Assembly (NCBI GenBank): GCA_947650285.1
Contig: CANTFL010000090.1
Location: 186,001-250,000, forward strand
DNA length: 64,000 nt
Reading direction: 5' to 3'
From: Hyaloperonospora brassicae
Taxonomy: Eukaryota > Oomycota > Peronosporomycetes > Peronosporales > Peronosporaceae
Part shown: in pieces, positions 20,581-51,169 of the stretch
Layout: each line of letters begins with the position of its first letter
How positions within the stretch are numbered: the first letter of the stretch is position 1
Made by a program: the position numbers and the translations under genes
Notes under the pieces: generated by a model
Databases searched by the model: none
What the model was told of the DNA's origin: nothing
The model's input: only the letters and a program-made list of their open reading frames with translations

Positions 20581-20589
20581 TTGCTCGAG

Positions 20590-22470: not shown

Positions 22471-22479
22471 GTAGACCAT

Positions 22480-23814: not shown

Positions 23815-24880
23815 ATCTTCTGATTTTCTTCGGTGGTCTGTCTCAAGTTAAACCTGGTCCCGGAGACGCTGGCTTTGTCCTATTGCGATTACAGGCACAC
23901 AAACATACCGCCCGGATCGTCTGGATTGCGAGCATGTCTCTCGTGTAGTCGACAACGTCGGATAACATGGCTGCATACTACGGCCTCGTCCACGGTTTTT
24001 AGCAATCATAAGCCAGCGGCTTTACTCGTCTGCATGCTTCGGAGATAGTTCCATGGTCAACACTCAACTTCGACTGTCCCGCTCGCCGCACCAGCCACAT
24101 TTCGCCGCACATTGCTGAAAGGCGCAGGGTCTTGCTAATGAAGTCACGGTCGCAAGCAGGTCTCACCATTACCGAGAACACAAGATGATTGCAGACCTTA
24201 CAGAAGACATTGCGATGGATACCAAGCAATCGCGACAAGTTCACGCTTCGTGTAACGGGGCACCGACGACTACGTACTGGTCAACCAGTACGGAGTTTAC
24301 TATCACCGACTGAAGTGATGGTCATTGCCCAGCTAGGTGTAGAACTACACAGAGGAAGGTAGAACGACTAAGGTGAAAGACTCTAGTCGTGGGAGAAGTT
24401 GATATGTTATTAATATAATTAAGTCCTATAACTATTGTACATCTGTTTGTCCTGGCTTAATTATACTAATGTAATTAAATGTATGATGACGTCTACTCAC
24501 CACCCATTGCGCGCGTCTAGCAGCGATTGGTGGGTTGATACCATCACGATATCAACCAATGAGTAGACCCTTCGGTCATCTTCAACAATATCTTCATGCT
24601 CTGTGATATTGTTGAAAGAATATTCAACGTAATATTCTTTATTGTCATTTTAACCCTTATGACAATGTCATGTAACGGGCTACCCCGTTACACTCCGACT
24701 GACCGCTCCATTGCTCGAACGCTGCACGATCACGTTCATCACGATGTCAACTATTGGCTCGAGATATCACTCTCTGTCGAAGTCGGACAGAACTCCTGCC
24801 GTTCGCGGACGGACCTCAGCGGATCATCCAATCATAGCCTGACGGCATGCCGCTCGTGCGGTCGCATTGTCGGATGCTGG
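23815..24880 (+). pseudogene. RNase H relic 2, split by a solo LTR
   Basis: The block LIFFGGLSQVKPGPGDAGFVLL (Asp lost) is followed by HTARIVWIASMS, MAAYYGLVHG and the C-terminal SHHYREHKMIADL. The gypsy solo LTR at 24251-24692 interrupts it, and a tail resembling that of RNase H copy 3 resumes at 24693. This dates the LTR insertion as later than the LINE. Confidence 0.7.
24251..24692 (-). repeat. Solo gypsy LTR of the A/B family
   Basis: 442 bp starting TGTAACGGGG and ending CCCCGTTACA, minus orientation judged from the TGTAACGGG/CCCGTTACA hairpin at its right end. Flanks are CTTCG and CTCCG, a target duplication with one mismatch. Central blocks (Inr-like CTCATTGGTTGATAT, GACGCGCGCAATG, GAATATT) match the LTRs of A and B, with about 25-30 percent divergence by eye. 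Several perfect stems persist, for example CAACAATATC/GATATTGTTG. Confidence 0.92.
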
Positions 24881-27662: not shown

Positions 27663-27667
27663 GTCTC

Positions 27668-28079
27668 TGTAACGGGGCAGCCCGTTACATAGAAATTGTC
27701 ATTTAGAAGATAAGGAGAATAAAGAATATTATGTTGAATATTCTTTCAACAATATCACCAATAGTGGTGATCTTGATGGGTCGACCAAAGAGTCTGCTCA
27801 TTGGTTGATATCTTGATGATATCAACCCACCAACAGCCGCAAGACGCGCGCAATGAGTGGTGAGTAGACGTCGTCATACATTCAGTTAGATTAGTATAAT
27901 TAAGTCAAGTCAAACAGAGAGACAGTGGTTAAAGACTTGATTATATTAATATAACAGTTCTACATTTCCCTAAGACAGTGTTGCCTCTGTCTTATCTACC
28001 GCTTCCTCGGTCGCTTCGTGTACGCTTGTCGGTGCACGATAGCTTGCAGTAAGTTCACGCAAGGCTGTGCCCCGTTACA
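27668..28079 (+). repeat. Element A 5' LTR
   Basis: 412 bp, starts TGTAACGGGG and ends CCCCGTTACA, a 10-bp terminal inverted repeat. The first 22 bases themselves form a hairpin (TGTAACGGG, loop GCAG, CCCGTTACA). It differs from B's 5' LTR at roughly a dozen places only. Confidence 0.97.
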
Positions 28080-28081
28080 CC

Positions 28082-28093
28082 TGGTAGCACTTT
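28082..28093 (+). other. Element A primer binding site
   Basis: TGGTAGCACTTT starts two bases after the LTR. TGG is the complement of a tRNA CCA end, so a tRNA whose 3' end reads AAAGTGCTACCA is implied. I cannot name the tRNA. The site is identical in element B. Confidence 0.75.
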
Positions 28094-28129
28094 GTAGTCC
28101 TCCCAGCGACCACCTCCACATCATCCACC

Positions 28130-29283
28130 ATGAACATGGTGGATGATGAGGAGACCTTTCACGCCACGCGTGAGGGGTTTAACCATTTTAGTGACATCGA
28201 ATGGAGTGCGGTAGAACGCATGAGCTCTACCGTAGGACAGCTCGCCATTAGCGCCATGTTGAAGTCTCTCAACAGAGACAAACAACATGCCGCTATAGCC
28301 AAGTTCATTCAAAATGGACTTGCCATCGAGAGGGATAAAGTAGCCTTGCTTCACCAGCAAGGCTCTCAACAGGCCGAGCAGTTGAGAGAACTCGGTGCTC
28401 AACAGACAGAGCTGTTGAGACAGCAGCAATTCCATGCTGCTGTGGGCGGGACGACACATATACGTCGTCCCGAGGTCATGAAGGTTGACATCTCAAAGTA
28501 CAGTGGAGTCCCGGAGGACTCCCTGTTATTGTGGTTCGTCGAACTCGACAGAGCCTTGAAGGCACGTCGTGTCGACGATGAGGAAATGAAACTCACATTT
28601 GCTCAGACCCACTTGGCAGGACGTGCCAAAACTTGGGCCTTAGAGCTCGAGAGTAGCGACCCAAATGTGTTTAGGTCGCTAGATGACTTCAAGTCTCGAC
28701 TCAAAGAAACGTTTGAGCCGCCACGCGCTGAGTTCAGAGCTCGTTCAGAGCTACTGAAACTCAAGCAGGGTAAGCGTGATGTTCACGCTTACGCCCAACA
28801 TATACGACTCCTCGCAAGTAGTATAACTGCCAACCCGGTCCATGAACACACGTTGATTACGGTGTTCATGCAAGGGCTCGCAGAAGGGCCCGTCAGGAGC
28901 CACCTGTTCCGCCTTGAGCTGAATACTTTAAAAGATGCGATATCTGTCGCGGAACAGGAAGACTTTAGCATGAGACAGGCTCATGCTAGCTCAAACTCTT
29001 ACCGTCCGCCAAGACGACAAGAGATCGGAGGTCCAGAACCAATGGACCTCTGCTATGTTGAGAGCGAGAGACCTCGCTCTTCAAACAACAAGCGATTGCA
29101 GAGGTGCAGTCGCTGTTAGAAGTTAAGGCACCACGCATACGAGTGTAGTGCTACACGCCCAGTACCAAACAGTACTGAGCGAAATGGTCGTCCATTTGCC
29201 AAGAAGGCCAATGGGCGTGGGTCCAGCGCTGTTGCGAAGCCGCAACAGCGAAACGGACCATCAAAAAATGGACGGGGTCAGTA
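28130..29283 (+). pseudogene. gag: Element A Gag (one stop in the zinc knuckle)
   Basis: The ATG at 28130 lies inside a 14-bp stem (28119-28132 with 28135-28148). The N-terminus is Gln-rich and helical, followed by a retrotransposon-gag capsid core with LLLWFVELDRAL and LAGRAKTWALEL (residues about 120-175) and a basic tail. The nucleocapsid knuckle begins CSRC, but the next codon is TAG (29117-29119); the frame continues after it to 29283 with YECSATRP and a basic, Gly/Asn-rich end. Element B has Gln at this stop but carries other lesions, so neither copy encodes an intact Gag. Confidence 0.9.
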
Positions 29284-29334
29284 GGGGCGGAGCGCCCTAC
29301 TGATCCAGCAACCTCAAGAGAATTTGCAAATCTC

Positions 29335-29592
29335 TTGACGAAAGTTGCTCCAGATACACAATCATTGTGTGTCTCTGCACCTAGTGATGACGTTTCGCTC
29401 ATCACCTTGAAGTTGGAAGCGAAAAATGATTTGTCGCTTCGTGCCCTAGTAGACTGTGGGGCGTCGAACAACTTTGTTCGTCGCCAGTCACTAGAGGGTC
29501 GTAGGCTCAAGTTCGTTGAGCGCGACATTCCCCTCACGAGGATGACGGTGCGCCTTGCAACAGGCGCATCGATAACCGTTGGATACGTGTAG
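29335..29592 (+). pseudogene. Element A aspartic protease
   Basis: LVDCGASNNFVRR is the retroviral-type protease active site (D-C/S-G-A). The frame ends at a double TAG (29590-29595), while the protein-like sequence continues at once in the -1 frame (HYTFEG..., FIVLDLDDKYGVILGLPWL). Element B shows exactly the same shift and the same TAG TAG. The site lies within a perfect hairpin, CGTGTAGT/ACTACACG. Its conservation means an inherited lesion or a recoding site. Confidence 0.85.
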
Positions 29593-29711
29593 TAGGAATC
29601 CACTACACGTTTGAGGGTGAACAGTACGATAATGACTTCATCGTACTGGATCTGGATGACAAATATGGTGTCATCCTGGGATTACCTTGGCTCAGAAGGT
29701 ACGAGCCAAGG

Positions 29712-30286
29712 GTGAGCTGGAAGCATCGATCCGTGAAGATGCCTGCCGCTGGTTCCTCAGGTGACGACCTGAAGAATATCTTGGAGCGCCCACATTTACG
29801 TAAGTGTACTTCGAGTGAGTGCGATGGCCTCACTTGCGGTACGGTCGCTAGCACGACTGCACAAGATCACAGTGTAGTTGATCACTACACTGTGGAGCAA
29901 GCTCCCGGCGGCTGTACAGAAGTACAGGCGGCGCCGAAGGTCTACCACTCGAAGAAGTCGAGTGGACCGGGACATGGATGCATGCCTAGCGGGCAGCATC
30001 TTAGAAGTAAGAAACCCGTTGCCTTTAAAGGGCAACATGGAAATCCTAGTGCGACTGGAGGGTCGACCGTAGAGGATCGGTGCCTGACCGTGGTTGCACA
30101 GCCACAGTCAGAAGACGTCGAGGGAGTAAGTCCCCACGTACTTGAGGAAATAATTATCAAGAGTCACTTGCTGAAGGATCAGGCCCTCAGCAACCTGTGC
30201 AAGCAAGTTCCCAGGAAGAAACCGAGACGTTGAACGTCTTGGTTAATGACGGATAAAGCGTAGGCGCTTATACGCTCGATCTGATT
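29712..30286 (+). pseudogene. Element A protease-RT linker, frameshifted
   Basis: Ser/Gly/Gln-rich linker. Compared with B, A has a small change near 30149-30156 that shifts the frame and a TAA near 30255 where B reads on. It holds dense hairpins such as ACAGTGTAGT/ACTACACTGT (29870-29894). Confidence 0.8.
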
Positions 30287-31483
30287 GTGCCTCCAAAGTT
30301 AACTTCGGAGATAACTCAGTTGCCAACGCTAGAACCGAAACGGTTCTTGCGTGATCTGCGTAGTGGCAAAGTCAAGCAGATCTGCATACTCGTCACAGAG
30401 GACGAGTATGTGACCGACATTCGGTGGGCAACAGTATTTGCTGAGAACGAACTGGTTCTCAGCAGCTCATCGATGGACGAAAGTGTCCTCGATGAGAAGA
30501 CTCGGATTGAGCGATACACGTCTCAATCCTGGGAGTCACTTCAGGCAAATCCTTTGTACAAGGATTTGATCGAATTCAGGGATGTGTTCCCTGAATCCGT
30601 ACCTTGCGAGTTGCCTAAGGACAAAGGCACTCGACACGAGATCGAGCTCAGACCGGGCTCGAAGTACTGTGTCATGAAGCAGTGGCCACTGCCTCGTGAA
30701 CAAGTACTAGCGATCGACAAGTTCTTTGCCGATCGCTTAGCAGCGGGCCATGTGAGGGAATCGACATCCCCTCACAGCTCTCCGAACTTCTATGTGCGAA
30801 AGGCCACAGGAGGGTGGCGGATAGTGCACGCATTCAACAAGTTGAATGCTGCAACGGTACCGGCTCAGACGCCGATACCGAGGAAGGACGTAATCATAGA
30901 TGGTATGTCAAAGAGTACCATCTTTTCGTCCATGGATCTGATAGATGGGTTCTATCAGATCCTCATGCGTGAACGGGACATCCCGTACACAGCAGTGAGC
31001 ACCCCCAGCGGTATGCTGTGGGAGTGGCTAGTTATGCCACAGGGTCTGAGCAATGCCCCTGCAACATTCAACAGATGTGTTACAAATCTGTTGAGACAGA
31101 TGCGAGACTTCACACCGAATTACTTCGACGATGTATTCGTCCATAGTCGGGCTATGGACGGAAAGACGGATGTTGACGTTCATATAATTCACGTTCGTCA
31201 GGTTCTTCAACTTATGCGCAAGCACAAGTTGTACGTCAACCTCAAGAAGTGCATATTCGCGGCTAGCGAAATACCACTTCTTAGGTGCCTCGTGGGCAAA
31301 CACGGCGTCCGCCCTGATCCCGAGAAGATCAAGGCGATCACCGACTGGCCAGTGCCAGTCGATGTCAAGGGACTAAAGAAGTTCCTTGGCCTAGCGGCGT
31401 ACTTGCACAAGTACTCGCGCAACTACGCCAAAATGACGGTACATCTTTCTTGTTTACTCAAGAAAAATGTCAAGTGGTCATAG
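30287..31483 (+). pseudogene. Element A reverse transcriptase
   Basis: A 398-codon open frame. LRPGSKYCVMKQWPLPREQ leads into the fingers; GGWRIVHAFNKLN and SSMDLIDGFYQILM form the pre-catalytic motifs, MPQGLSNAPATFNR the central block, and YFDDVFVH is the active site (Phe where most gypsy elements have Ile or Val). The KHKLYVNLKKC thumb and FLGLAAYLHKYSRNYA follow. The frame ends at a TAG after KWS (31481-31483), a stop that element B has at the same codon. Confidence 0.92.
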
Positions 31484-31525
31484 AACGCTAAGTGCCAGCG
31501 TTCCTTTGAGGGTATCAAGCAAAGC

Positions 31526-33022
31526 TTGATGCAGTCGCCGATATTGGCGATTGTAGATCAGGACAGACCATTTCATGTGGTCTGTGACGCCAGAGATTTT
31601 GCAATCGGCTGTGCGTTGATGCAGTTCGACGCAGATGGCGCGGACCGTATCATCTGTTATCAGTCGCTTCAGCTGCAACCAGCTGAGCGTAATTACCCAG
31701 TGCATGACAAGGAACTCCTTGCCATGAAATATACACTGGCTAAGTTGCGCGTCTATCTCTTGGGAGATAGACCGTTCATTGTCTATACGGACCATGCGTC
31801 ACTACGCACGGCCGTAAACAGCCCACACCTCTCGCAAAGGATGGCGAGGTGGCTGTCCTTCTTCGCGGAGTATAACTTCTCCGTGGAGTATAAACCAGGA
31901 CGACTAAACGTCGTCGCTGATGCTCTTTCGCGCCGGCCCGATTTCGAGCGGGATGCACAAATCAACAGTGAGGATAAGCCCACTGTTGCGATACTGTCAG
32001 TCAGTGTCCCGTCGTCAAGTTTACTTGACGACGTACGAAAGGCATACGCGGAAGATAAGGATCTTCTGCGATTAATGGATCATCTGGTGAATCCATCCAG
32101 TAAATCCATGAGGGAGTTACCAGCTTTGTACCGATCCTCATCTGATCGGTACACAACGCGTAACGGACTGTTATATTATACAGCTGTTCCCGACGGCAAG
32201 CCTCGTGTCGTCGTCCCCGCTCATAATGATTTGCGATTACGCATCATGTATGAGTGTCACGATGCACCAACAGGCGGCCATCGTGGGAGAGAAAAGACTT
32301 ACCTCACGGTAAGTCGTGACTTTTACTGGCCACGCCAGTATCAGTTTGTCCGCAAGTACGTACGTGCTTGCGAGATTTGTCAACAGGTGAATCCTAGTCC
32401 TTCGTCCCGTGCACCATTACAGCCTCTACCGGTCCCGGTAGAGGACTGGCAGTCCGTTTCAATGGACTTCGTCTTGGGTTTTCCCGAAGACGCTCACAAG
32501 AATAATGGTATTCTTGTGTTTGTTGACCGATTCAGCAAGATGGTGCATCTTGGTGCTGTCCCTGAGTCGATCAAGGCTCAAGGTTGTGCTCGTGTCTTTC
32601 TAGACACGGTCTTTCGACTCCACGGGTTACCCCGTGAACTCGTATCCGACCGTGACCCTCGGTTCACGGAGGCATTTTGGCAAACCGTGTTCCGTTCTCT
32701 TGAAACACGATTGAAGATGTCTACTTCTGACCATCCCGAAACAGATGGTCAGACGGAACGTGCCAACCGTGTCCTCGAAGAGATCCTTCGAGGATATGTC
32801 CACTCGTTTTCGAGTTGGAGCGAATTCCTACCGATGGTGGAATTCGCCATCAATAATTCGGTGCTTGCCTCGACACAGCACACAACGTTTTACGTGAATG
32901 GTTTACTCCATCCACGTGTGCCCGCCCTTCTAGAGTGTGACTCTTGGATAAGGGGGGAGGGACTCGCTCGAGCAAAAACCGTTTTGGCTCTTGATTATCA
33001 CGTGTCGACGCTAACGTCGTAA
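31526..33022 (+). pseudogene. Element A RNase H and integrase
   Basis: A 498-codon open frame. RNase H is marked by VVCDARDFAIGCALMQ, DKELLAMKY and VYTDHASLRT. The integrase zinc site (H-H-C-C) runs from YECHDAPTGGHRGREK to CEICQQ; the DDE core has Asp in SMDFVLGFPED, Asp in LVSDRDPRFT and Glu in DGQTERANRVLEEIL. The catalytic residues look intact. The frame ends at TAA (33020-33022) after STLTS while a DDD-rich, protein-like frame continues in another phase; B has the same lesion. Confidence 0.92.
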
Positions 33023-34180
33023 CGTATGATGACGATGTCGATCAGGTCGACATCGATGAAGAAGATCACCTCAATAATAGCGGCGACGCTATTATTGACT
33101 CGGATGATGATGACGATGCTGGGATATTCAGTATAGTCAACGATTATGCCAGCGAGGAAGAAGACAACCTCGCTGAAGAAGAGAACAGTCTCTTAGCAGT
33201 GCGCACGAAGCGCACTGAAAGACAAAACAAAGAGTCAGCAGAGAACTTCCTGCTGACTCGAGAAGCGATAGTCCGCTTCGTTCAAGACTCCATCGCAAAT
33301 GCGGTGGATCGTCAGGAACGAAACGCAGACAAGAATGGAAGAGCGAATGTTCTTTCATTTTAAGTTAACGACCTAGTACTACTGTCTACAGTAAATTTAC
33401 CTAGACATGCTGTCACTAGTGTCGGCAGTAGTAAACTACTGCCGAAGTACATTGGGCCATTTCGTAGGTTGCACCGCAAAGGAGCTGCATACACACTCGA
33501 ATTGCCACGTAAGATGCGCACGCATCCTACGTTTTACGTGGGGAGGCTCAGGCCGTACTGTCAGTACGAGCCTTCTTCTTCCGATGAAGATAGCCCCCAC
33601 GTTCAAGGACCTCCATCAGGTTCTTGCGTTCGCGCTCCAGACGGTCCGTCTGGTCGCGCAAATGATGATACCTCAGAACTCAACCGAGATATCTCTCCGC
33701 GAGCTGTCGCCAGCTCGCCGAACGAGGAAGCGGACATCCCGCTCGACCTGAATCTGCGAGCGGCATAATCGGCGCGATGCCTCGCATCGCTCCGTCTCGT
33801 GATCCTTGCGGTTCTTCCGCACGGTATCAGTCAAAGCTGTAACGCCTGTTGCGCTCGTGCGTCAAATCATCGCGCAATTCATCGATTGCGCGATCCATCT
33901 CGTAAGGGTCGAGATGGTGAGCCGAATCATCTGGAGGAGGTCTTTCCTCCTCCACCACATTCTTCGGTGGACTCGTCACGGTGGTCAACGCTTTCTAGTG
34001 GAGCGTATCTTGAACCACCGTGACGATTCAGGATCAAGGACGAGCTACCTCGTCCAGTGGCGGGGGTATCCACCCTCTTGGAACAGCTGGGAGCCCCGCT
34101 CCCAGATGATGATGGATGTGCCTGGTTTCTTCCACCAGTATGACGAGACTCATCCGATTGGTCCTGGGGCCCATCGGTAA
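33023..34180 (+). pseudogene. Element A integrase C-terminus: GPY/F-like module and chromodomain
   Basis: After an acidic linker and a stop (33361-33363, shared with B) comes VNDLVLLSTVNLPRHA and YIGPFRRLHRKGAAYTLELP, the GPY/F-type module. The chromodomain reads FLVERILNHRDDSGS, then YLVQWRGYPPSWNSWEP, and ends at 34180. One extra T near 33975, relative to B, shifts the frame between linker and chromodomain. The chromodomain would guide integration to marked chromatin. The linker between the two modules has low-complexity sense sequence and is open on the opposite strand. Confidence 0.88.
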
Positions 34181-35159
34181 ACACGCGCTTTTGGCGCTTG
34201 TAGACGGATTGCAAGTTTGCAATCGCGTCATGCATCTCCTCCGAGATGTGTGACCTTCCCCAGGGCGAACTTAGGGAATACACGTCCCTATGTGCACGCT
34301 GCGAGTTGTCAACACAACTCGCACAAGGGTCTCCCCATGTGAGGCAAGGAATGTCTGCCTCACTTGACAAACAGTGCAACCGGTACCTGGCACCGGTTGG
34401 CGTTCGCTTTTCGAACCTGAGGCGTGTCGCCTCAAGTGTCTTGAGCCACCCTTCTCGTCCAAAATTCTTTACGTTTTGGAAGAACGCGTTCCACGCAGCC
34501 AAAAGCGAGGCCTTGTCACGCTTTTTATTGCTGTTGTACCATCGATGTCTAAGGAAGACATCGAGATAAAAATCTTCTTCAGCGCGAAAGGTACTCGCGC
34601 TGGGACTCAAGCCGTGAAGCTCAGTCGCATCGAAAAAGGGTATTTGATGGTGTTGGCTTGTCTCGTGAGACAAGCTATTGATGAGCCGTTCGGGCAAACG
34701 CCACGGCTTCAGCTCATCACGCTTCAAAGTGGTACCCTTGTCGGTACCACGGTTGTCAGTATGACGATGGCTTGCACCATCGTCAAGTCGCTCGTGCGAA
34801 GGAGCACGAGCTGATCGCGGTGATGAGCAATCATACTCATCATCAGATTCGTCATCACTGCCGAACAGACTGTGTTGAAACTCACGAGTCCGTTAATTGG
34901 GCAGTGGCCTTGGTGAACACTGAGGAGTCGCCGGTGATCGAGACGCCTCTGCAGCATTGCCCGAGTCAGACACGTCTGACTCGCCAGAGTAGATGACCTC
35001 AATATCGAGGTCATCATGCGCACGCGGTGCTGATACCGCGTGCACCTGCAGTACCTCTTGCTGCAGGCGAAGAGTGAGCAGCAGATATCGATTTGTCTGC
35101 CGCAGAAGCACAGGCACAGGCACAGACTCTGTGTGCCTTGAGTCACTCCGCATAGACAT
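33927..35159 (-). pseudogene. Antisense ORF in the 3' region of element A (one stop, 3' frame change)
   Basis: Reads against the retrotransposon. ATG at 35159 (MSMRSDSRH), an acidic segment PRAHDDLDIEVIYSGESDVSD, one TAA at 34893-34895, then the same frame open for about 320 codons to 33927. The core reads KRDELKPWRLPERLINSL, FRAEEDFYLDVFLRHRWYN, KKRDKASLLAAWNAFF. In B the same core is open and the acidic N-terminus continuous, but B has stops where A is open. I do not recognise the family. Capture of a gene or an element-encoded antisense protein are both possible; codon-level tests are needed to tell it from a shadow. Confidence 0.6.
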
Positions 35160-35280
35160 GTTAACTATGCGAGGTCAGGTTGAGTTATGAACGGAACTCA
35201 CCCAACAAGTGCTCCCTGTCCCAATGGTGTCCAGAGGGTGGCCGCCATAATTTTCGATAGTCACACGGTGACTATCAGTT

Positions 35281-35292
35281 AAGGGAGGGTGA
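35281..35292 (+). other. Element A polypurine tract
   Basis: AAGGGAGGGTGA adjoins the 3' LTR; it follows a 9-bp perfect stem GATAGTCAC/GTGACTATC. Both are kept in B. Confidence 0.8.
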
Positions 35293-35687
35293 TGTAACGG
35301 GGCAGCCCGTTACATGGAAATTGTCATTTGAGAGATAAGGACAATAAAGAATATTATGTTGAATATTCTTTGAACAATATCACCGATAATGGTGCAATTG
35401 GTGAAGCGACCAAAGGGTCTACTCATTGGTTGATATCGTGGTGATATCAACCCACCAATCGCCGCAGGACGCGCGCAATGAGTGGTGACGAGACGTCACC
35501 ATACATTTAGTTATATTAACATAATTAAGTTAGGTCAAACAGAGAGACAGTAGCAAAAAGACTTGATTATATTAATGCAACAGTTTTACTTTTACCTTAC
35601 CCTACGCTTCCTCGTTCGCCTCGTGTACGTCTGTCGGGGCACCTAAAACCCTTGCGTTAAGTTCACGCAAGGGTGTGCCCCGTTACA
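35293..35687 (+). repeat. Element A 3' LTR, of a different subtype from its 5' LTR
   Basis: 395 bp with the same ends. The first 300 bp align with the 5' LTR with many changes; the part after GTTTTACTT lacks the segment with ACAGTGTTGCCTCTGT that the 5' LTR has, and reads CTAAAACCCTTGCG near the end. Confidence 0.95.
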
Positions 35688-35692
35688 GTCTC

Positions 35693-38329: not shown

Positions 38330-40918
38330 AAGCGTTCGGCCGTGTCATCCAGCTCTTTATAGCATTAGTACATGGGACACCGCGTGTGGCGAACGTCGTG
38401 CACTTGCGGCAATGTCGACGGTCAGATCGAACGACCAGCGAGCGCTACAACGGAAGCGTTCAGGATCGTGAGTGGCTTGTTTGTCTCCTACGAGAAGATG
38501 GCGGGAAGCGAGAGATTCGCTTGAGACGTCGTAATCACCAGTAGACGACGTCTCTTGGCGTTTAATCTCCGCTTGCACTACCGCTTCTACTTCCCATCGT
38601 AGAGCGGTCTCTTGAATGTTTGGCTAGAAGGCTGTGTGCTGCCGCGTAGTGCCACATCGCTACCGCAACGACAGTAGTAGCCACAACAACGCCGAGACTG
38701 GCGATAGTTCGACAGTCCCGGCTTCATTCGAGCCTGTACAGAGCCGATCGATTGCGATTCACGGAAGAAGGCTCCATAGAAAACAGCAATGCTCTCTGTG
38801 TATTCATCACAGTCGGCACTTTGTTGCCAAAAGCTCCGACTCGAAGCGAGAAGAGGCTTTGACCGACGAACCACAATGTACCGGTTCGACTACCGGTACG
38901 ATCGACGAGAGCAGCTGGCTTGGTCCAACTGAATGATGGATAACCTAGACCAAGGCGTCGCTCACGAATCGCTCACTTCAAACGACACGCAAGCCAGCAG
39001 TACGAGCAGTTGACCGCACAAAGTAGTATATGCTCCTTCTACTGCGCGCCTTAGTCGAAACTGCGATCACAGAAATGATTGATCCTGTAGTCGGGCACTT
39101 TAGTGCTTGAACAGGCGTCAAACGATCAGAGCGTGACGTTTGTTTATGCGAAGAGTACGCACAGGATATCAGGGCGAGCGTGACGTTTGTTTATGCGAAG
39201 AGTACGCACAGGATATCAGGGCGAGCATGAAAGGTATGTTCGCTTTTGCGTAAGCGTGAAACCGATTTTGGTGGGAGCTAATCTCGTTGGCAGCATAAAG
39301 CCCTGTCAATGCTCCATTGAGGTGCCTAAAAAAGGAGCGTGAGCGTTCGATCGTCCGGAAAGCCTGGACAAGCAGGAAACAGTTGCCCATTCGAGTAAGC
39401 ACGATATCGACGTCAATAGTGGCCTATCCCACACGCATTACAACGACATGTCGATCATCTCCCAGTCCCGAATCGGATTTAGAAACGACCGGCAAGACGA
39501 CACTCACTTTTGTACCATCGCAAAAAGATGCAGTAAGCAGATATAGGATGGGGACACGCAGCAGCTACTTCTTGCGGATAGATAGACGCTCTATCCATCA
39601 CGTCTGTGAGGAGAAGTATGCGTTGCAATTTGAGAAAAGAAGGAGGCGGCTCAATCGTGTGCCACACATGTTCTACTATTTCGTTTGAGCTGCGTGCGAT
39701 GACGGAAACAAAGGAGTGGGCGAAACGGACGACAACAGTGATGTCGACGATCAAAGTGACGTGCACAAGCAGTTATCGTCAATCGAGGTGTCACATCTGT
39801 GCATTACCGACCCTACGGCAATGGGGATGACTACACAATCAGATGCGATAGTGAATGTAGGGCAGTCCAGCCCACGATGGTTCTTTGTACTGCTCCTCGA
39901 CATGGCGACGTCAATGTACGACTGAGTCGGCAGTAACTGGATAGACGAACCGAATGATGTCGCAAGATTTGACCCAACGAGAACGTGGTGGAACGCGATT
40001 GCAGTTAGTAACTGCTACCTGAATGGCCGACATCGATACGTACAGACTCCACATTCCTCAAACGGACGCTCCAAGTGTGGTGAGGCTGCGCATGAAGAAC
40101 ATCATCGAGTCAATACCAACTAATCACGAGTCCGCCGGAAGGTAGAATTGCAATACAAACACTAAGCTCATGTAAGTTTCGCAAAAACTTATTCGCGTTG
40201 GTCGTAGCCGACGATTCAAGACGCGCACGTACGAACCCGATACTTAGTAGCAGACATTGATATTGCTTCCATGAGGCGTTCACATCGCGATGGTGTCGCA
40301 TGGTCTTGGCTGATCGCGCTGCCCAAATGCCTTTCGTGCAAATATTACAGCCCACGACGTGAGAGCTTGTGAGTTGGCCGTCTGCTGCAAGTGTCTAACA
40401 AAAGCTGACACTCCTTATGCTTCCATTGCTTTTCAAGCCTGACCGCCGACGCATCACACACTGGTATCCGGAATACCACAGTGCAACAGCACACCAAACG
40501 CGTCAAATCGAGTGAGTCGGAAACGAAAGATGTTCACGCACCTGCGCAGCGCCACTATGCCTCGGCAGTTGTGGTCCGAAGAATCATAATTGCTGAGATG
40601 TCATGGCCGAAGGCCAATGTGTAGCCTTATGGCAATGTAAGTGACAGATGAAAGCGGTAGATAAGCCGCAATAGAGGTGATATTGAAGTTCTGCACCAAC
40701 GCTTGCTACACTAAAAGTAGCAAGTTTACAGACGATGCGAATAAGAAAGTAAAGAAGCCGCTGCATGGTACATTGGCGAATAATTGTGAAACAGCGTCAT
40801 ATCTAGTTACAGTCCAGCAACCATTCATCGTGATAGTTCATTAGATACGAGCTATTAACCATGTTGCATCAGCGTAGACGTCGTGAGAAAGCAAAAAGCG
40901 CGGATCTGATATCGACAA
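38330..40918. other. Intergenic, no gene recognised
   Basis: Upstream of the oxidoreductase. Frames are at most 123 codons with no motif. It holds one 47-bp tandem duplication (39129-39226). Confidence 0.5.
39129..39226. repeat. 47-bp tandem duplication
   Basis: The unit starting GAGCGTGACGTTTG occurs twice head to tail with no difference visible, ending in a partial third copy GAGC. It is a recent duplication. Confidence 0.95.
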
Positions 40919-41697
40919 TGTAACGGGGTAGCCCGTTACATAAAAATACCATAATGAGAAATGGTAACAAAGAACAATGTGTTGAATATTGTTGGTAATA
41001 TTATCACAAAATACAGTGGTATTGTTGAGATAACCCAAGGGTCTACTCATTTTTTTGCTCTGTAGGTACATACTGTACATTTAATTCTCCTAACGGCATG
41101 CAACTGCCCTCTTCGGGAGGGTCTTCACATTCCCACCCGGTCGTGGTTGCGTCCCACGTTCCGAGCACTGCTTACTTGCTGCTCTGGGTGCCTACTATAG
41201 GTTGATGGGGTTTATGCTTCTTCGAGATGTCTTACTAGCTGGTATCGGGTCCCGGGGTGTTACCAGTGCTACAGTGTGTCACGCACATTTTAAAAACCTC
41301 TGGCTGGTCTGACGGGGAATCGAACCCGCGCCACTTACTTGTCACGAGCGGTGCTTATCGAGGGCACCTCGGTAGAGCCCCGAGGATCTACTCATTAGGG
41401 AGACATTCTCCATAAATCAACCGATTAATCGCTGCTAGACGCGCGCAATGGGTGGCGGGTAGACGTGGTCACACGTTTAGTTCTGTTAATATATCCGAGT
41501 TGGGACAAATCAGACACAAACGATAGTAGGATTAATCATATTCAATAACAATTTTACTACGACCAAAGTCTTTGCCTTGGTCGTTCTTCTTCCTTTGTAT
41601 AGTGTATAGAGGTAGCAGGGCACTGACCTTCACTTTCGCCAGTGATAATTGGCTTCGTACTGGTAGTCCAGTACGTAGCGATCGGTGCCCCGTTACA
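40919..41697 (+). repeat. Solo gypsy LTR (A/B family) carrying a SINE
   Basis: Starts TGTAACGGGG and ends CCCCGTTACA, flanked by GACAA and GACAT (4 of 5). Without the 335-bp SINE and its 10-bp duplication it is 434 bp. Perfect stems are kept, for example CGTACTGG/CCAGTACG and ACGACCAA/TTGGTCGT. Confidence 0.93.
41052..41386 (-). mobile_element. tRNA-derived SINE inserted in the solo LTR
   Basis: 335 bp bounded by a 10-bp target duplication TCTACTCATT (41042-41051 and 41387-41396). On the minus strand it has a tRNA-like head with a clear RNA polymerase III B box GGTTCGATTCC (41316-41326) in the context CGCGGGTTCGATTCCCCGTC, and an A-box-like stretch about 40 bp before it (TACCGAGGTG). It ends in a short A tail (plus-strand T run at 41052). 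No coding capacity. The tail region, with GAGGGCAGTTGCATGCC, gives no recognised LINE partner in this window. Confidence 0.85.
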
Positions 41698-43555: not shown

Positions 43556-43967
43556 TGTAACGGGGCACACCCTTGCGTGAACTTACTGCAAGATATCGTG
43601 CACCGACAAGCGTACACGAAGCGACCGAGGAAGCGGTAGATAAGACAGAGGCAACACTGTCTTAGGGAAATGTAAAACTGTTATATTAATATAATCAAGT
43701 CTTTAACCACTGTCTCTCTGTTTGACTTGACTTAATTATACTAATCTAACTGAATTTATGACGACGTCTACTCACCACTCATTGCGCGCGTCTTGCGGCG
43801 ATTGGTGGGTTGATATCGTCAAGATATCGACCAATGAGCAGACTCTTTGGTCGACCCATCAATATCACCACTATTGGTGATATTGTTAAAAGAATATTCA
43901 ACATGATATTATTTATTGTCATTATCTCTCAAATGACAATTTCCATGTAACGGGCTGCCCCGTTACA
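43556..43967 (-). repeat. Element B 3' LTR
   Basis: 412 bp, TGTAACGGGG to CCCCGTTACA. The polypurine tract (minus sense AAGGGAGGGGTGA, 43968-43980) adjoins its inner end. Confidence 0.97.
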
Positions 43968-44100
43968 TCACCCCTCCCTTAAGTGATAGTCACCGTGTGA
44001 CTATCGAAAATTATGGCGGCCACCCGTTGGGCGCCATTGGGACAGGGGGCACTTGTTGGGTCCGTTCCATTCACTTTTCGCTAGACTTCGCATAGTTAAC

Positions 44101-45702
44101 ATGTCTATGCGGGATGACTCAAGACACGTACAGCCTGCTGCTGTGCCAGCCTCTGCGGCAGACGATTCGTCGTCTGCTGCTCGTTCTCCACCTGCAGCAA
44201 CAGGTGCTGCAGGTGCACGCGGTATCACACCGCGTGCGCATGATGACCCTGACATAGAGGTCGTCTATTCTGGCGAGTCAGACGTGTCTGACTCGGAAAA
44301 GCCTTTGGAGGCATCGCGTTCACCTGCGGTGCCTCATTCATCCACGACACTGCCGGACGTACGGACTCGTGACATGCGTCACAGTCTGTTCGGCAGTGAT
44401 GATGAGTCTGATGATGAGTGTGATTGCTCATCACCGCGATCAACCCGTGCTCTTTCGCACGAGCGACATGACGATGTTAAAAGCCATCGTCATACTGACA
44501 ACCGTGGTACCGACAAGGGTACAACTTTGAAGCGTGATGAGCTGAAGCCGTGGCGTTTGCCTGAACGGCTCATCAATAGCTTGTCTCACGAGACAAGCCA
44601 ACACCATCAAATACCCTTTTTCGATGCGACTGAGCTTCACGGCTTGAGTCCCAGCGCGAGTACCTTTCGCGCTGAAGAAGATTTTTATCTCGATGTCTTC
44701 CTTATACATCGATGGTACAACAGCAATAAAAAGCGTGACAAAGCCTCGATTTTGGCTGCGTGGAACGCGTTCGTCCAAAACGCAAAGAACTTTGGACGAG
44801 AAGGGTGGCTTCAGACACTTGAGGCGACACGCTTCAGGTTCGAAAAGCGAACGCCAACCGGTGCCAGGTACCGGTTGCACTGTTTGTCAAGTGAGGCAGA
44901 CATTCCTTGCCTCACATGAGGAGACCCTTGTGCGAGTTGTGTTGACAACTCGCAGCGTGCACATAGGGACGTGTATCCCATAGATTCGCCCTGGGGAAGG
45001 TCACACATCTCGGAGGAGATGCATGACGCGAATGTAAACTTGCAATCCGTCTACATGCGCCAAAAGCGCGTGTTTACCGATGGGCCCTAGGATCGATCGG
45101 ATGAGTCTCGTCATACTGGTGGATGAAACCAGGCACGTCCATCATCATCTGGGAGCGGGGCTCCCAGCTGTTCCAAGAGGATGGATACCCCCGCCACTGG
45201 ACGAGGTAGCTCGTCCTTGATCCTGAATCGTCACGGTGGTTCAAGATACGCTCCACTAGAAAGCGTTGACCACCGTGCGAGTCCACCGAAGAATGTGGTG
45301 GAGGAGGAAAGATCTCCTCCAGATGATTCGGCTCACCATCTCGACCCTTACGAGATGGATCGCGCAATCGATGAATTGCGCGAAAATTTGACGCACGAGA
45401 GAAACAGGCGTTACAACCAGTCTGATTCTTTGCGTAAGTACCGCAAGAAACACGAGACGGAGCATGCGAAGCACCGCGCTGAGTATGCGGTCTCGCAGAT
45501 GCAGGTCGAGCGTCACGTCCGCTTCCTCGTTGGCGAGCTGGCGACAGCTCGCGGAGAGATCTCTCGTTTGAGTTCTGAGGTCTCTCATTTACGCGACCAG
45601 ACGGACCGTCTGGAGCGCGAACGCAAAAACCTGATGGAGGTCCTTGAACGTGGGGGCTATCTTCATCGGAAGAAGAAGGCTCGTACTGACAGTACGGCCT
45701 GA
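44101..45702 (+). pseudogene. Antisense ORF in the 3' region of element B
   Basis: Reads against the retrotransposon. 44101-44919 is open for 272 codons from ATG (MSMRDDSRH): an Ala/Pro/Ser-rich and acidic N-terminus with YSGESDVSDSE, then GTTLKRDELKPWRLPERLI and the conserved core also open in A. After stops at about 44919 and 45090-45130 the protein-like sequence resumes at 45181-45702 with MDRAIDELRENLTHERNRRY and a heptad-rich helix LSSEVSHLRDQTDRLERE, ending KKARTDSTA. The coiled-coil half overprints the sense linker between GPY/F module and chromodomain. Together with A, an ancestral antisense gene of about 530 codons is implied. Family unknown to me. Confidence 0.6.
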
Positions 45703-46227
45703 GCCTCCCCACGTAAAACGTAGGATGCGTGCGCATCTTACGTGGCAATTCGAGTGTGTATGCAGCTCCTTTGCGGTGCAACCTACGAAATGGCCCAATG
45801 TACTTCGGCAGTAGTTTACTACTGCCGACACTAGTGACAGCATGTCTAGGTAAATTTACTGTAGACAGTAGTACTAGGTCGTTAACTTAAAATGAAAGAA
45901 CATTCGCTCTTCCATTCTTGTCTGCGTTTCGTTCCTGACGATCCACCGCATTTGCGATGGAGTCTTGAACGAAGCGGACTATCGCTTCTCGAGTCAGCAG
46001 GAAGTTCTCTGCTGACTCTTTGTTTTGTCTTTCAGTGCGCTTCGTGCGCACTGCTAAGAGACTGTTCTCTTCTTCAGCGAGGTTGTCTTCTTCCTCGCTG
46101 GCATAATCGTTGACTATACTGAATATCCCAGCATCGTCATCATCATCCGGGTCAATAATAGCGTCGCCGCTATTATTGAGGTGATCTTCTTCATCGATGT
46201 CGACCTGATCGACATCGTCATCATACG
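45074..46227 (-). pseudogene. Element B integrase C-terminus: GPY/F-like module and chromodomain
   Basis: The frame 45074-45781 is open: HRKGAAYTLELPRKM, a long Arg/Ser/Pro-rich linker, and the chromodomain FLVERILNHRDDSGS, YLVQWRGYPSSWNSWEP. The chromodomain is joined in frame here, unlike in A. Upstream lie an acidic linker and the stop after LSF shared with A. Confidence 0.88.
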
Positions 46228-46863
46228 TTACGACGTTAGCGTCGACACGTGATAATCAAGAGCCAAAACGGTTTTTGCTCGAGCGAGTCCCTCCCCCCTT
46301 ATCCAAGAGTCACACTCTAGAAGGGCGGGCACACGTGGATGGAGTAAACCATTCACGTAAAACGTTGTGTGCTGTGTCGAGGCATGAACCGAATTATTGA
46401 TGGCGAATTCCACCATGGGTAGGAGTTCGCTCCATCTAGGGAACGAGTGGACATATCCTCGAAGGATCTCTTCGAGGACACGGTTCGCACGTTCCGTCTG
46501 ACCATCTGTTTCGGGATGGTCAGAAGTAGACATCTTCAATCGTGTTTCAAGAGAACGGAACACGGTTTGCCAAAATGCCTCCGTGAACCGAGGGTCACGG
46601 TCGGATACGAGTTCACGGGGTAACCCGTGGAGTCGAAAGACCGTGTCTAGAAAGACACGAGCACAACCTTGAGCCTTGATCGACTCAGGGACAACAGCAA
46701 GATGCACCATCTTGCTGAATCGGTCAACAAACACAAGAATACCATTATTCTTGTGAGCGTCTTCGGGAAAACCGAAGACGAAGTCCATTGAAACGGACTG
46801 CCAGCACTCTGTCGGAACAGGTAGAGGCTGCAATGGCGCACGGGACGAAGGACTAGGATTCAC
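46228..46863 (-). pseudogene. Element B integrase core
   Basis: 211 open codons holding the DDE core (SMDFVFGFPED, LVSDRDPRFT, DGQTERANRVLEE). It ends after STLTS at the same place as in A. A TAG at 46912-46914 separates it from the zinc-binding part, where A has Gln. Confidence 0.9.
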
Positions 46864-46911
46864 CTGTTGACAAATCTCGCAAGCACGTACGTACTTGCGG
46901 ACAAACTGATA

Positions 46912-47724
46912 CTAGCGGGGCCAGTAAAAGTCACGACTTACCGTGAGGTAAGTCTTTTCTCTCCCACGATGGCCGCCTGTTGGTGCATCGTGACACTCAT
47001 ACATGATGCGTAAACGCAAATCATGATGAGCGGGTACGACGACACGAGGCTTGCCGTCGGGAACAGCTGTATAATATAACAGTCCGTTACGCGTTGTGTA
47101 CCGATCAGATGAGGATCGGTACAAAGCTGGTAACTCCTTCATGGATTTACTGGATGGATTCACCAGATGATCCATTAATCGCAGAAGATCCTTATCTTCC
47201 GCGTATGCCTTTCGTACGTCGTCAAGTAAACTTGACGACGGGACACTGACTGACAGTATCGCAACAGTGGGCTTATCCTCACTGTTGATTTGTGCATCCG
47301 GCTCGAAATCGGGCCGGCGCGAAAGCGCATCAGCGACGACGTTTAGTCGTCCTGGTTTATACTCCACGGAGAAGTTATACTCCGCGAAGAAGGACAGCCA
47401 CCTCGCCATCCTTTGCGAGAGGTGTGGGCTGTTTACGGCCGTGCGTAATGACGCATGGTCCGTATAGACAACAAACGGTCTATCTCCCAGGAGATAGACG
47501 CGAAACTTAGCCAGTGCGTATTTCATGGCAAGCAGTTCCTTGCCATGCACTGGGTAATTACGCTCAGCTGCTTGCAGCTGACGCGACTGATAACAGATGA
47601 CGCGGTCCGCGCCATCTGCGTCGAACTGCATTAACGCACCACCGATTTCAAAATCGCTGGCGTCACAGACCACATGAAATGGTCTGTCCTGATCTGCAAT
47701 CGCCAATATCGGCGACTGCATCAA
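46912..47724 (-). pseudogene. Element B RNase H and integrase zinc domain
   Basis: 270 open codons: VVCDASDFEIGGALMQ, GKELLAMKY, VYTDHASLRT, then the spacer LLDDVRKAYAEDKDLL and the start of the integrase zinc domain (ECHDAPTGGHRG). Confidence 0.9.
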
Positions 47725-47922
47725 GCTTTGCTTGATACCTTCGAAGGAACGCTGGCACTCAGCGTTCTATGACCACTTGACATTTTTATTGAGAAAGCAA
47801 GAAAGATGTACCGTCACTTTGGCGTAGTTGCGCGAGTACTTGTGCAAGTACGCCGCTAGCCCAAGAGACTTCCTTAGTTTCTTGACATTGACTGGCACTG
47901 GCCAGTCAGGGATCGCCTTGAT

Positions 47923-49539
47923 CTAATCGGGATCAGGGCGTACCTTGTGTTTACCCACGATGCACCTAAGAAGTGGTATTTCGCTAGCCGCGAATATGCA
48001 CTTCTTGAGGTTGACGTACAACTTGTGCTTGCGCATAAGTTGAAGAACCTGACGAACGTGAATTATATGAACATCAACGTCCGTCTTTCCGTCCATAGCC
48101 CGACTATGGACGAGCACATCGTCGAAGTAACTGGGTGCGAAATCACGCACCGGTCTCAACAGATTTGTAACACATCTGTTGAATGTTGCAGGGGCATTGC
48201 TCAGACCCTGTGGCATCACTAGCCACCTCCACAGCATACCGCTGGGGGTGCTCACTGCTGTGTACGGGATGTCCCGTTCACGCATGAGGATCTGATAGAA
48301 CCCATCCATCAGATCCATGGATGAAAAGATGGTACTCTTTGACATACCATCTATGATTACGTCCTTCCTCGGTATCGGCGTCTGAGCCGGTACCGTTGCA
48401 GCATTCAATTTGTTGAATGCGTGCACTATCCGCCATCCTCCTGTGGCCTTTCGCACACAGAAGGTCGGAGAGCTGTGAGGGGATGTCGATTCCCTCACAT
48501 GGCCCGCTGCTAAGCGATCGGCAAAGAACTTGTCGATCGCTAGTACTTGTTCACGAGGCAGTGGCCACTGCTTCATGACACAGTACTTCGAGCCCGTTTT
48601 GAGCTCGATCTCGTGTCGAGTGCCTTTTTCCTTAGGCAACTCGCAAGGTACGGATTCAGGGAACACATCCCTGAATTCGATCAAATCCTTGTACAAAGGA
48701 TTTGCCTGAAGTGACTCCCAGGATTGAGACGCGTATCGCTCAATCCGAGTCTTCTCATCGAGGACACTTTCGTCCATCGATGAGCTGCTGAGAACCAGTT
48801 CGTTCTCAGCAAATACTGTTGCCGACCGAATGTCGGTCACATACTCGTCCTCTGTGACGAGTATGCATATCTGCTTGACTTTGCCACTACGCAGATCACG
48901 CAAGAACCGTTTCGGTTCTAGCGTTGGCAACTGAGTTATCTCCGAAGTTAACTTTGGAGGCACAATCAGATCAAGCGTATAAGCGCCTACGCTTGATCCG
49001 TCATTAACCAAGACGTTCAACGTCTCGGTTTCTTCCTGGGAACTTGCTTGCACAGGTTGCTGAGGGCCTGATCCTTCAGCAAGTGACTCTTGAGGAATTT
49101 CTTCCTCAAGTACGTGGGGACTTACTCCCTCGACGTCTTCTGACTGTGGCTGTGCAACCACGGTCAGGCACCGATCCTCTACGGTCGACCCTCCAGTCGC
49201 ACTAGGATGTCCATGTTGCCCTTTAAAGGCAACAGGTTTATTACTTCCAAGATGCTGCCCGCTAGGCATGCATCCATGTCCCGGTCCACTCGACTTATTC
49301 GAGTGGTAGACCTTCGGCGCCGCCTGTACTTCTGTACAGCCGCCGGGAGCTTGCTCCACAGTGTAGTGATCAACTACACTGTGACCTTGTGCAGTCGTGC
49401 TAACGACCGTACCGCAAGTGAGGCCATCGCACTCACTCGCAGTACATCCACACGCTTGTGGACGCTCCAAGATGTTCATCAGATGGCCATCTGATGAACA
49501 AGCGGCAGGCATCTTCACGGATCGATGCTTCCAGCTCAC
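47923..49539 (-). pseudogene. Element B linker and reverse transcriptase
   Basis: 538 open codons from the protease-RT linker to a TAG (47923-47925) after VRPDPD, where A reads on. RT motifs as in A: GGWRIVHAFNKLN, SSMDLMDGFYQILM, active site YFDDVLVH. A second stop after KWS, near 47770, is shared with A. The linker contains a perfect 28-bp palindrome (49473-49500). Confidence 0.92.
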
Positions 49540-49657
49540 TCTTGGCTCGTACTTTCTGAGTCAAGGTAATCCCAGGATGTCATCAAATTTGTCGTCCAGA
49601 TCCAGTACGATGAAGTCATCATCGTACTGTTGCCCTCTAACGTGTAGTGGATTCCTA

Positions 49658-49915
49658 CTACACGTATCCAACGGTTATCGATGCGCCTGTTGCAAGGCGC
49701 ACCGTCATCCTCGTGAGGGGAATGTTGCGCTCAACGAACTTGAGCCTACGAACCTCTAATGACTGGCGACGAACAAAGTTGTTCGACACCCCACAGTCTA
49801 CTAGGGCACGAAGCGACAAATCATTTGTCGCTTCCAACTTCAAGGTGATGAGCGAAACGTCATCACCAGGTGCAGAGACACACAATGATTGTGTATCTGG
49901 AGCAACTTTCGTCAA
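49658..49915 (-). pseudogene. Element B aspartic protease
   Basis: LVDCGVSNNFVRR carries Val in place of the active-site Ala (DCGA in A), which probably weakens or abolishes activity. The frame ends at the same TAG TAG as in A, and a further single-base loss follows in B. Confidence 0.85.
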
Positions 49916-49965
49916 GAGGTTTGCAAATTCTCTTGAGGTTGCTGGATCAGTAGGGCGCTCCGCCC

Positions 49966-51119
49966 CTACTGACCCCGTCCATTTTTTGATGGTCCGTTTC
50001 GCTGTTGCGGCTTCGCAACAGCGCTGGACCCACGCCCATTGGCCTTCTTGGCAAATGGACGACCATTTCGCTCAGTACTGTTTGGTACTGGGCGTGTAGC
50101 ACTACACTCGTATGCGTAGTGCCCTAACTTCTGACAGCGACTGCACCTCTGCAATCGCTTGTCGTTTGAAGAGCGAGGTCTCTCGCTCTCAACATAACAG
50201 AGGTCCATTGGTTCTGGACCTCCGGTCTCTTGTCGTCTAGGTGGACGATAAGAGTTTGAGCTGGCATTAGCCTGTCTCATGCTAGAGTCTTCCTGTTCCG
50301 CGACAGATATCGCATCTTTTAAAGTATTCAGCTCAAGGCGAAACAGATGGCTCCTGACGGGCCCTTCTGCGAGCCCTTGCATGAACACCGTAATCAACGT
50401 GTGTTCATGAACTGGTTTAGCAGTTATACTACTCGCAAGGAGTCGTATATGTTGGGCGTAAGCGTGAACATCACGCTTACCCTGCTTGAGTTTCAGTAGC
50501 TCTGAACGAGCTCTGAACTCAGCGCGTGGCGGCTCAAACGTTTGTCTGAGCCGGGACTTGAAATCATCTAGCGACCTAAACACATTTGGGTCGCTACTCT
50601 CGAGCTCTAAGGCCCAATTTTTGGCACGTCCTGCCAAGTGGGTCTGAGCAAATGTGAGTTTCATTTCCTCATCGTCGACACGACGTGCCTTCAAGGCTCT
50701 GTCGAGTTCGACAAACCACAATAACAGGGAGTCCTCCGGGACTCCACTGTACTTTGAGATGTCAACCTTCATGACCTCGGGACGACGTGAATGTGTCGTC
50801 CCGCCCACAGCAGCATGGAATTGCTGCTGTCTCAACAGCTCTGTCTGTTGAGCACCGAGTTCTCTCAACTACTCGGCCTGTTGAGAGCCTTGCTGGTGAA
50901 GCAAGGCTACTTTATCCCTCTCGATGACAAGTTCATTTTGAATGAACTTGGCTATAGCGGCATGTTGTTGGTCTCTGTTGAGAGACTCCAACATGGCGCT
51001 AATGGCGAGCTGTCCTACGGTAGAGCTCATGCGTTCTACCGCACTCCATTCGATGTCACTAAAATGGTAAAACCTTCACGCGTGGCGTGAAAGGTCTCTT
51101 CATTATCCAACATGTTCAT
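49966..51119 (-). pseudogene. gag: Element B Gag (frameshift and stop near the N-terminus)
   Basis: ATG at 51119. Relative to A one base is missing near 51066, and a TAG at about 50870 replaces a Gln codon; from 50868 to 49966 the frame is open for 300 codons. The capsid core and an intact CCHC knuckle (CSRCQKLGHYAYEC) are present, followed by a basic tail. Confidence 0.9.
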
Positions 51120-51155
51120 GGTGGATGATGTGGAGGTGGTCGCTGGGAGGACTAC

Positions 51156-51167
51156 AAAGTGCTACCA
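51156..51167 (-). other. Element B primer binding site
   Basis: TGGTAGCACTTT in element sense, two bases from the 5' LTR, as in A. Confidence 0.75.
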
Positions 51168-51169
51168 GG

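Follow-up and report, generated by a model that had tools for sequence, protein, structure and literature searches.

Why should a retrotransposon carry short perfect inverted repeats, one close upon another, through its long terminal repeats (LTRs) and coding sequence alike? The question is raised by element A, a decayed Ty3/gypsy LTR retrotransposon in a 64,000-nt stretch of the 100.56 Mb genome of Hyaloperonospora brassicae (contig C42:186001-250000, hereafter the window), and by element B, a second decayed copy of the same family in the opposite orientation. A sequence-only reading had described the family as built almost entirely of consecutive perfect stem-loops, and had suggested that either selection for RNA structure or the templated correction of quasi-palindromes, through strand switching in reverse transcription, might lie behind it. 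We lean cautiously towards the view that the whole length of the element, synonymous positions included, is kept as short perfect hairpins by selection on the replicating lineage.

Perfect stems in elements A and B

Unless stated otherwise, stems were called in an exhaustive scan as perfect inverted repeats of at least 8 bp with a loop of at most 12 nt. Element A holds 79 such stems in 8020 bases, against a mean of 2.0 (maximum 5) in dinucleotide-preserving shuffles (15 per region), while element B holds 79 in 7914 bases (43547-51460; shuffle mean 1.1, maximum 3). One stem was found in the 4798 bases of a copia element in the same window, none in positions 1-10000 and one in positions 16000-24000. 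Synonymous-codon shuffles (60 per open reading frame (ORF) for A, the copia element and the host genes; 40 for the sister copy L042 considered below) gave the same picture: the gag ORF of A has 11 stems (shuffle mean 0.48, maximum 3), the reverse transcriptase (RT) ORF 12 (0.33, maximum 2) and the RNase H/integrase ORF 11 (0.37, maximum 2), compared with no stems in copia pol (0.58) and one in each of two host ORFs (0.43 and 0.30). The excess first noticed by eye therefore stands far above dinucleotide shuffles in both A and B, and far above codon shuffles in the three ORFs of A.

All 11 stems that had been listed between 28119 and 29250 are real. The scan finds 13 there, adding 28654-28681 and 29028-29050, and the stems at 28420-28443 and 28447-28472 have 9 bp, one more than listed. 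Two further examples also exist with corrected positions: that given as 30945-30955/30961-30971 is a 12-bp stem at 30934-30945/30951-30962, and that given as 33423-33432/33435-33444 extends over 33422-33432/33435-33445 (11 bp). The phrase ‘built almost entirely’ was too strong, since in the three copies analysed stems of at least 7 bp pair 28-31% of bases, with 37-39% taken up by hairpins.

Only inverted repeats are in excess. In the pieces of a recent copy described below, positions with arms of 8 and a gap of at most 12 number 255 for inverted repeats, compared with 2 for mirror, 3 for direct and 10 for complement repeats. An artefact or coincidence, whether through base composition, codon usage, assembly error or repeat-rich sequence, can be practically dismissed, given the scarcity of mirror and direct repeats, the far lower stem counts in every shuffle and the presence of the trait in all 38 family loci (8.3-13.5 stems per kb, some loci being the same insertion). 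Chance, composition and codon usage are ruled out by the shuffles.

An abundant family with recent copies

The family is represented by at least 135 RT matches at 92-100% identity, scored among 5700 candidates. The closest named proteins from outside are those of Peronospora matthiolae (up to 86%) and Phytophthora (approx. 70%), and no relative was encoded in IMG/VR or in the prokaryote genomes searched. Searches for intermediate families that started from Phytophthora cinnamomi and Peronosclerospora sequences listed 97 and 93 matches, which appeared to be of this family only.

Stem density is 12.4-13.5 per kb in 26 of the 27 loci L012-L038 and 10.6 in the remaining one, L016, with 8.3-8.7 at A's own loci (the sets L001-L008 and L009-L038 share some insertions, for example L001/L009 and L007/L012). 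The recent copy, C79, has identical LTRs (391/391) and a target duplication, GTGGC; counted over 7859 of its bases, with some 160 bases between two pieces outside the count, it carries approximately 14 stems per kb across LTR, coding and non-coding parts alike (LTR and leader, 7 in 425 bases; gag part, 15 in 1033; pol, 51 in 3700; 3′ coding, 14 in 1196; 3′ non-coding, 20 in 1114; 3′ LTR, 7 in 391). Within this main family stems recur at the same places: 47 of the 66 sites are occupied in 25 or more of the 30 copies. One locus, L011 (C458:256695-260558), looks recombinant: approximately 1.07 kb of a diverged subfamily (82% identical to A) lies beside a deletion of about 290 bases, followed by 3′ sequence about 91% identical to a young copy. 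It was excluded from the main-family counts or taken as outgroup.

Folding energies, computed with RNAfold in 300-nt windows against codon-preserving shuffles, are in line with the stem counts. The excess for pol is 44.5% on the sense and 48.6% on the antisense strand, and the excess over dinucleotide shuffles, taken part by part along the element, is 46.6-57.7%. The sister family described next reaches 16.9% sense and 20.7% antisense, while the controls lie close to zero (sense/antisense: copia, -0.5/-1.5%; host gene, -0.7/0.9%), and MS2 replicase gives 28.3% and 24.2%. The 16S and 23S ribosomal RNAs (rRNAs) of E. coli together contain a single stem in 4446 nt; hairpins are far denser here than in the viral and ribosomal RNAs compared.

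A sister family with smaller hairpins

A second gypsy family in the genome (L039-L068), 52.8% identical to the main family over 1133 aligned amino acid residues, has only 0-0.5 stems of at least 8 bp per kb. In its copy L042, however, stems of 5 bp number 82, compared with 31.7 in shuffles (z 11.6), and those of 6 bp number 42, compared with 7.1 (z 14.9), while those of 7 bp number only 5, compared with 2.1; short stems (at least 5 bp, loop at most 6) number 114, compared with 28.4 (maximum 40) in codon shuffles. The copia element, one host gene and the random stretches L070 and L071 show no clear short-stem excess. The earlier observation that other elements lack the trait thus holds for the copia element, which is at background, and for the region at 0-2 kb, which has no 8-bp stem, but not for this sister family elsewhere, whose short-stem form escapes an 8-bp threshold. 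A fixed stem-length threshold hides such an architecture, which may consequently be overlooked in other transposons.

A mild surplus of short stems was also seen at 1-6 kb and 16-22 kb of the window, in L072 and in a second host gene (z 2.3-3.2, each for a single stem length). In the first three, where 5-6 bp stems are involved (z 2.7-3.2) and 8-bp stems are not dense, decayed gypsy sequence or chance may be responsible. In the sister family, L067 carries a private 120-nt insertion at alignment column ~998 that repeats adjacent sequence.

Hairpin size is family-specific, with spans centred on 13-14 nt in the sister and 23-26 nt in the main family. Loop length is negatively correlated with stem length in both (r -0.25 to -0.42, permutation p 0.0014 or less), but this trade-off is partial, which weakens the idea of a strictly fixed span and leaves span as a tendency; a first-order pairing correlation was too weak to reveal the span. 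Only 6 of 45 stem centres coincide between the families, compared with 1-6 at shifted registers. The trait is common to both families; the individual hairpin positions are not. We put forward tentatively, and think it rather doubtful, that downy mildew gypsy elements have a hairpin gauge for each family (~13-14 versus 23-26 nt) set by a molecular ruler in replication, packaging or silencing evasion, and selected on genomic RNA and complementary DNA (cDNA). If true, gauged hairpins would be a layer of information beside the protein code, distinct from genome-scale ordered RNA structure (GORS) in being size-gauged, Watson-Crick-perfect and strand-symmetric.

How the hairpins are maintained

Changes private to one copy were compared with those shared between copies or fixed. 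The two main-family alignments that underlie the arm position counts, the G.U losses and the change clusters overlap in insertions, and are not independent; sister counts omit L060 and L066, the latter serving as outgroup for the gain, loss and G.U counts, while the cluster test used all 30 sister loci. Among young copies of the main family, single-copy changes gain and lose stems in the ratio 3:38 (n=119), compared with 7:9 (n=60) for shared or fixed changes (p=0.003). The sister family behaves alike (23:119, n=409, against 45:63, n=416; p=1e-5). Single-copy changes create stems no more often than random substitutions, of which, in the main family, 36% break and 6% make a stem. This contrast argues that mutation, as sampled by single-copy changes, does not favour stems, and that the replicating lineage keeps or gains them. 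Arms as mutational cold spots fail as a full explanation, as single-copy changes break stems in 32% of cases against 36% for random ones. In the main family the arms hold 24% of private changes, compared with 31% expected; counted by position, the arm share in the sister family is 26.9% for shared and 39.4% for single-copy changes (p=1e-4).

Divergence outside the LTRs points the same way. The 5′ part of L011 is 82-84% identical to A and to L022, and its differences from L022 fall at 6 of 222 arm, 19 of 92 loop and 96 of 462 outside positions, although the demand for perfect stems in one sequence inflates this arm/outside contrast, by an estimated factor of up to about two. In the 3′ non-coding part, the recent copy differs from A at 17 of 358 arm, 18 of 120 loop and 79 of 623 outside positions. 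Compensatory pairs exist (6 of 133 pairs between A and L011), for example AGAGCGAG/CTCGCTCT to AGGGCGAG/CTCGCCCT. The palindrome CGTGAACGGGAC/GTCCCGTTCACG has three mismatches in A, B, L010 and L011, two in L016, one in L012 and none in L022.

Judged from the sequences, the hairpins are shown to be fitted through synonymous choice. Amino acid identity to seven relatives is alike in stem codons and in other codons. Codons on opposite arms can be aligned in three registers, of which the most constrained is the rarest in the main family (7/52), though not in the sister family (35/114).

Strand switching as a possible source of palindromes

The second cause named at the outset would make the palindromes a mutational signature: the element's RT would often jump to the strand it is itself synthesizing where inverted repeats are imperfect, and would copy one arm from the other. 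Such an event is probably caught in copy L037, where, as seen by eye, a single step has inverted the interior of a hairpin at ~29275-29306 and cleared a mismatch from its arms. A young palindrome of 14 bp departs from its older counterparts at several sites in both arms simultaneously; one stem, on the other hand, gained its perfection base by base. Stems that are Watson-Crick-perfect and strand-symmetric fit this mechanism, as does a hairpin size peculiar to each family with longer loops on shorter stems, which a polymerase-specific reach would give. If switching were the main neutral force, however, both sides of a pair should often change together, and in the 3′ non-coding part they did so in only 2 of 179 pairs, against an outside divergence of 12.7% (p=1e-8, or p=0.0007 if the rate is halved). 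The failure of single-copy changes to make stems more often than random ones tells against it too. In an automatic test, clusters of private changes were explained by local reverse-complement copying in 0/36, 0/46 and 0/118 cases, by a rule that also missed the event in L037. We conclude that template switching occurs, as the inverted hairpin in L037 indicates, but that, under a simple neutral model, too few pairs change on both sides for it to dominate. The non-coding counts reject that model; coding constraint could hide switching in the coding parts. As the principal account of the hairpins we regard it as unlikely.

Proposed mechanism, and the strand on which it may act

On the selection account, an abundant and recently active Ty3/gypsy retrotransposon would have its hairpin chain kept by selection on the replicating lineage, while insertions that no longer replicate would lose hairpins through ordinary mutation, which would explain why A and B have fewer than the recent copies. 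The related gypsy family shares the trait with smaller hairpins, size being a family property and positions differing between families. The chain may compact the nucleic acid into many small local folds and keep it from pairing with silencing RNAs or antisense transcripts, each stem being held too short for dicing. Phytophthora is reported to make 25-26-nt small RNAs (PMC5411455), a length close to the hairpin span of the main family and not to that of the sister; the match is suggestive only. The primer binding site (PBS) and polypurine tract (PPT) may be left single-stranded to let reverse transcription start.

The presumed PBS and PPT do both lie free between hairpins, and the putative PBS has no stem of at least 8 bp in A and none of at least 7 bp in the recent copy. 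On the sense strand, loops of the recent copy contain 34% A and 17% C, compared with 24.5% and 26% outside, with A outnumbering T by 214 to 147 (p=0.0005; against outside, p=0.008). Together, A-rich loops and a free PBS and PPT suggest a strand-specific role.

Several observations weigh against selection, or against the sense RNA as its object. Shared changes have passed through reverse transcription and single-copy ones perhaps largely have not, so a bias of the RT could mimic selection. By position, the arm share in the main family is the same for shared and single-copy changes (22.6% and 23.6%, 29 copies, p=0.83), both below the expected 31%. LTR arms evolve no more slowly than the rest (A 5′ LTR, 16/116 against 30/253 outside; B, 9/94 against 38/278), and young stems compared with decayed A show only a small contrast (54/1161 against 156/2362). 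Loops of the sister family have no excess of A (A:T 83:99). G.U mismatches occur about as often as A.C ones (16:19 or 16:13 in the recent copy; 20:19 for flanked pairs), with too few pairs in the MS2 and rRNA controls for calibration, and the G.U:A.C ratio is 41:34 among shared and 64:65 among private losses in partly overlapping data. Folding is equally strong on sense and antisense strands, and stems that pair about 30% of bases make a weak shield. The LTR arms and the sister loops in particular lowered our confidence in selection and raised it in strand switching. As for selection on RNA structure, the first cause that had been proposed, the gain/loss contrast in two families and the slow arms and compensatory pairs outside the LTRs speak for it, but ordinary selection on the sense RNA would also lead to a tolerance of G.U pairs that is not seen, so RNA structure is only a candidate for what selection acts on.

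Selection might instead act on DNA or on both strands, favouring cDNA hairpins or cruciforms through minus-strand cDNA folding, chromatin or recombination, with RNA folding as a by-product. The equal frequency of G.U and A.C mismatches and the equal folding of both strands are what this would give, and A-rich sense loops are T-rich loops in minus-strand cDNA. The G.U comparison, however, has no usable positive control, MS2 and rRNA offering too few informative pairs, and we know of no DNA function that requires hairpins along an entire retroelement. We judge it distinctly improbable, and retain selection on the replicating lineage as the reading to which we lean.

The elements in the window

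The features of the two elements and of the family relics around them are collected in table 1.

Table 1. Family features in the window (positions counted from its first base).
Feature	Position	Strand	Basis or remark
Element A, decayed Ty3/gypsy LTR retrotransposon	27668..35687	+	79 perfect stems of at least 8 bp, loop at most 12
5′ LTR of A	27668..28079	+	terminal palindrome TGTAACGGG/CCCGTTACA; self-comparison and LTR alignment
3′ LTR of A	35293..35687	+	81% identity to the 5′ LTR of A
Target site duplication GTCTC of A	left 27663..27667, right 35688-35692		read in sequence
Putative PBS, adjoining the 5′ LTR of A	28080..28100	+	predicted from sequence
gag ORF of A	28130..29119	+	Pfam Retrotrans_gag, Ty3_capsid
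Longest stem of A (14 bp, loop 2)	28119..28148	+	stem scan
RT ORF of A	30287..31483	+	Pfam RVT_1
12-bp stem in conserved RT stretch	30934..30962	+	scan, translation, conserved columns
RNase H and integrase ORF of A	31526..33022	+	Pfam RT_RNaseH, Integrase_H2C2, rve
3′ non-coding part of A	34177..35292	+	approximate, by homology to recent copy
Element B, same family as A, opposite orientation	43556..51580	-	LTRs 43556-43967, 51170-51580
Target duplication ACTGA of B	43551-43555 and 51581-51585		sequence
LTR relic of the family, 82-83% identity, five stems of 8-12 bp	24409..24692	-	LTR alignment
Older LTR relic, 70-77% identity, fragmented	40918..41514	+	LTR alignment
gag-region relic, 68% identity	57000..57474	+	sequence comparison

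The LTRs of A start with TGTAACGG and end with CGTTACA, giving the TG...CA ends and short target duplication characteristic of Ty3/gypsy elements, and the Pfam matches follow the Ty3/gypsy order (gag, RT, RNase H, integrase). A TGG-containing stretch 3′ of the LTR and a G-rich tract 5′ of the 3′ LTR are the candidate PBS and PPT; a search of the window found no tRNA gene to match the candidate PBS. An Rfam search over 27600-35800 yielded nothing at the gathering score.

Elements A and B are 94.7% identical across 8044 columns. Although A is flanked by matching target duplications, its two LTRs are only 81% alike, and the 5′ one shares 95.6% identity with an LTR of B. The other, the 3′ LTR of A, looks as if it was replaced, by conversion or recombination. 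An antisense open frame of 266 amino acids in the 3′ part of A (33927-34727, minus strand), with no Pfam match, is probably a by-product. A host ORF (36630-38198, minus strand) for a berberine-bridge-like FAD oxidase is matched by two H. brassicae proteins at 94% and 78% identity. The copia element (10643-15440), whose LTRs are 99% identical over 253 bases, is without hairpin excess and makes a good internal control.

Comparison with known systems

No comparable retroelement was found in the titles and abstract openings searched, mainly of openly accessible papers. Genome-scale RNA structure has been linked to the persistence of RNA viruses, with its cause debated, and the present element suggests that the folding itself may be something it lives by. 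At least 135 scored copies of differing age, a sister family with smaller hairpins and a hairpin-free copia element amount to a natural experiment on how a whole-genome structure is built, maintained and decays, one that could separate selection from template switching.

Quasipalindrome template-switch mutagenesis would yield perfect inverted repeats and inverted loops like that in L037 (cf. PMC7202029). It is described for mutational hotspots at single imperfect palindromes, whereas here the whole element is involved, with too few paired changes for this process to be solely responsible.

The nearest kind is GORS, in which, according to PMC7642675, hundreds of consecutive local stem-loops likewise run through coding sequence with an energy well below composition-matched shuffles, positions are poorly conserved between relatives and stems are shorter than sensors of double-stranded RNA need. 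In the present families the energy is below that of shuffles and positions are not conserved between the two, while G.U tolerance is not seen; for this reason, and with hairpins predicted here from sequence, we do not call the element a proven member. It differs further in being an LTR retrotransposon with a DNA stage, and in its stems, which are perfect and strand-symmetric, show no preference for G.U and have a size peculiar to each family. Folding excesses cited in the same source are 15% for SARS-CoV-2, 7.5-10.7% for hepatitis C virus and 23.4% for the highest vertebrate RNA virus; the 44.5% of pol is about twice that maximum, by somewhat different shuffling methods.

MS2 is also a densely folded RNA genome, with an excess of 29% by dinucleotide shuffle (whole genome) and 28% by codon shuffle (replicase), but it has only 3 stems in 3569 bases (0.84 per kb, against approx. 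14 here) and favours its sense strand (z -5.3, compared with -3.9 for the antisense). The yeast element Ty3 belongs to the same Ty3/gypsy class and has a folded genomic RNA, as mapped by selective 2′-hydroxyl acylation analysed by primer extension and mutational profiling (SHAPE-MaP; PMC11381356). There, the same source gives a well-folded core of almost 20% of the sequence and a base-paired PPT, whereas in the H. brassicae element the hairpins extend along the full length, both LTRs included, and the PPT is predicted to lie between them.

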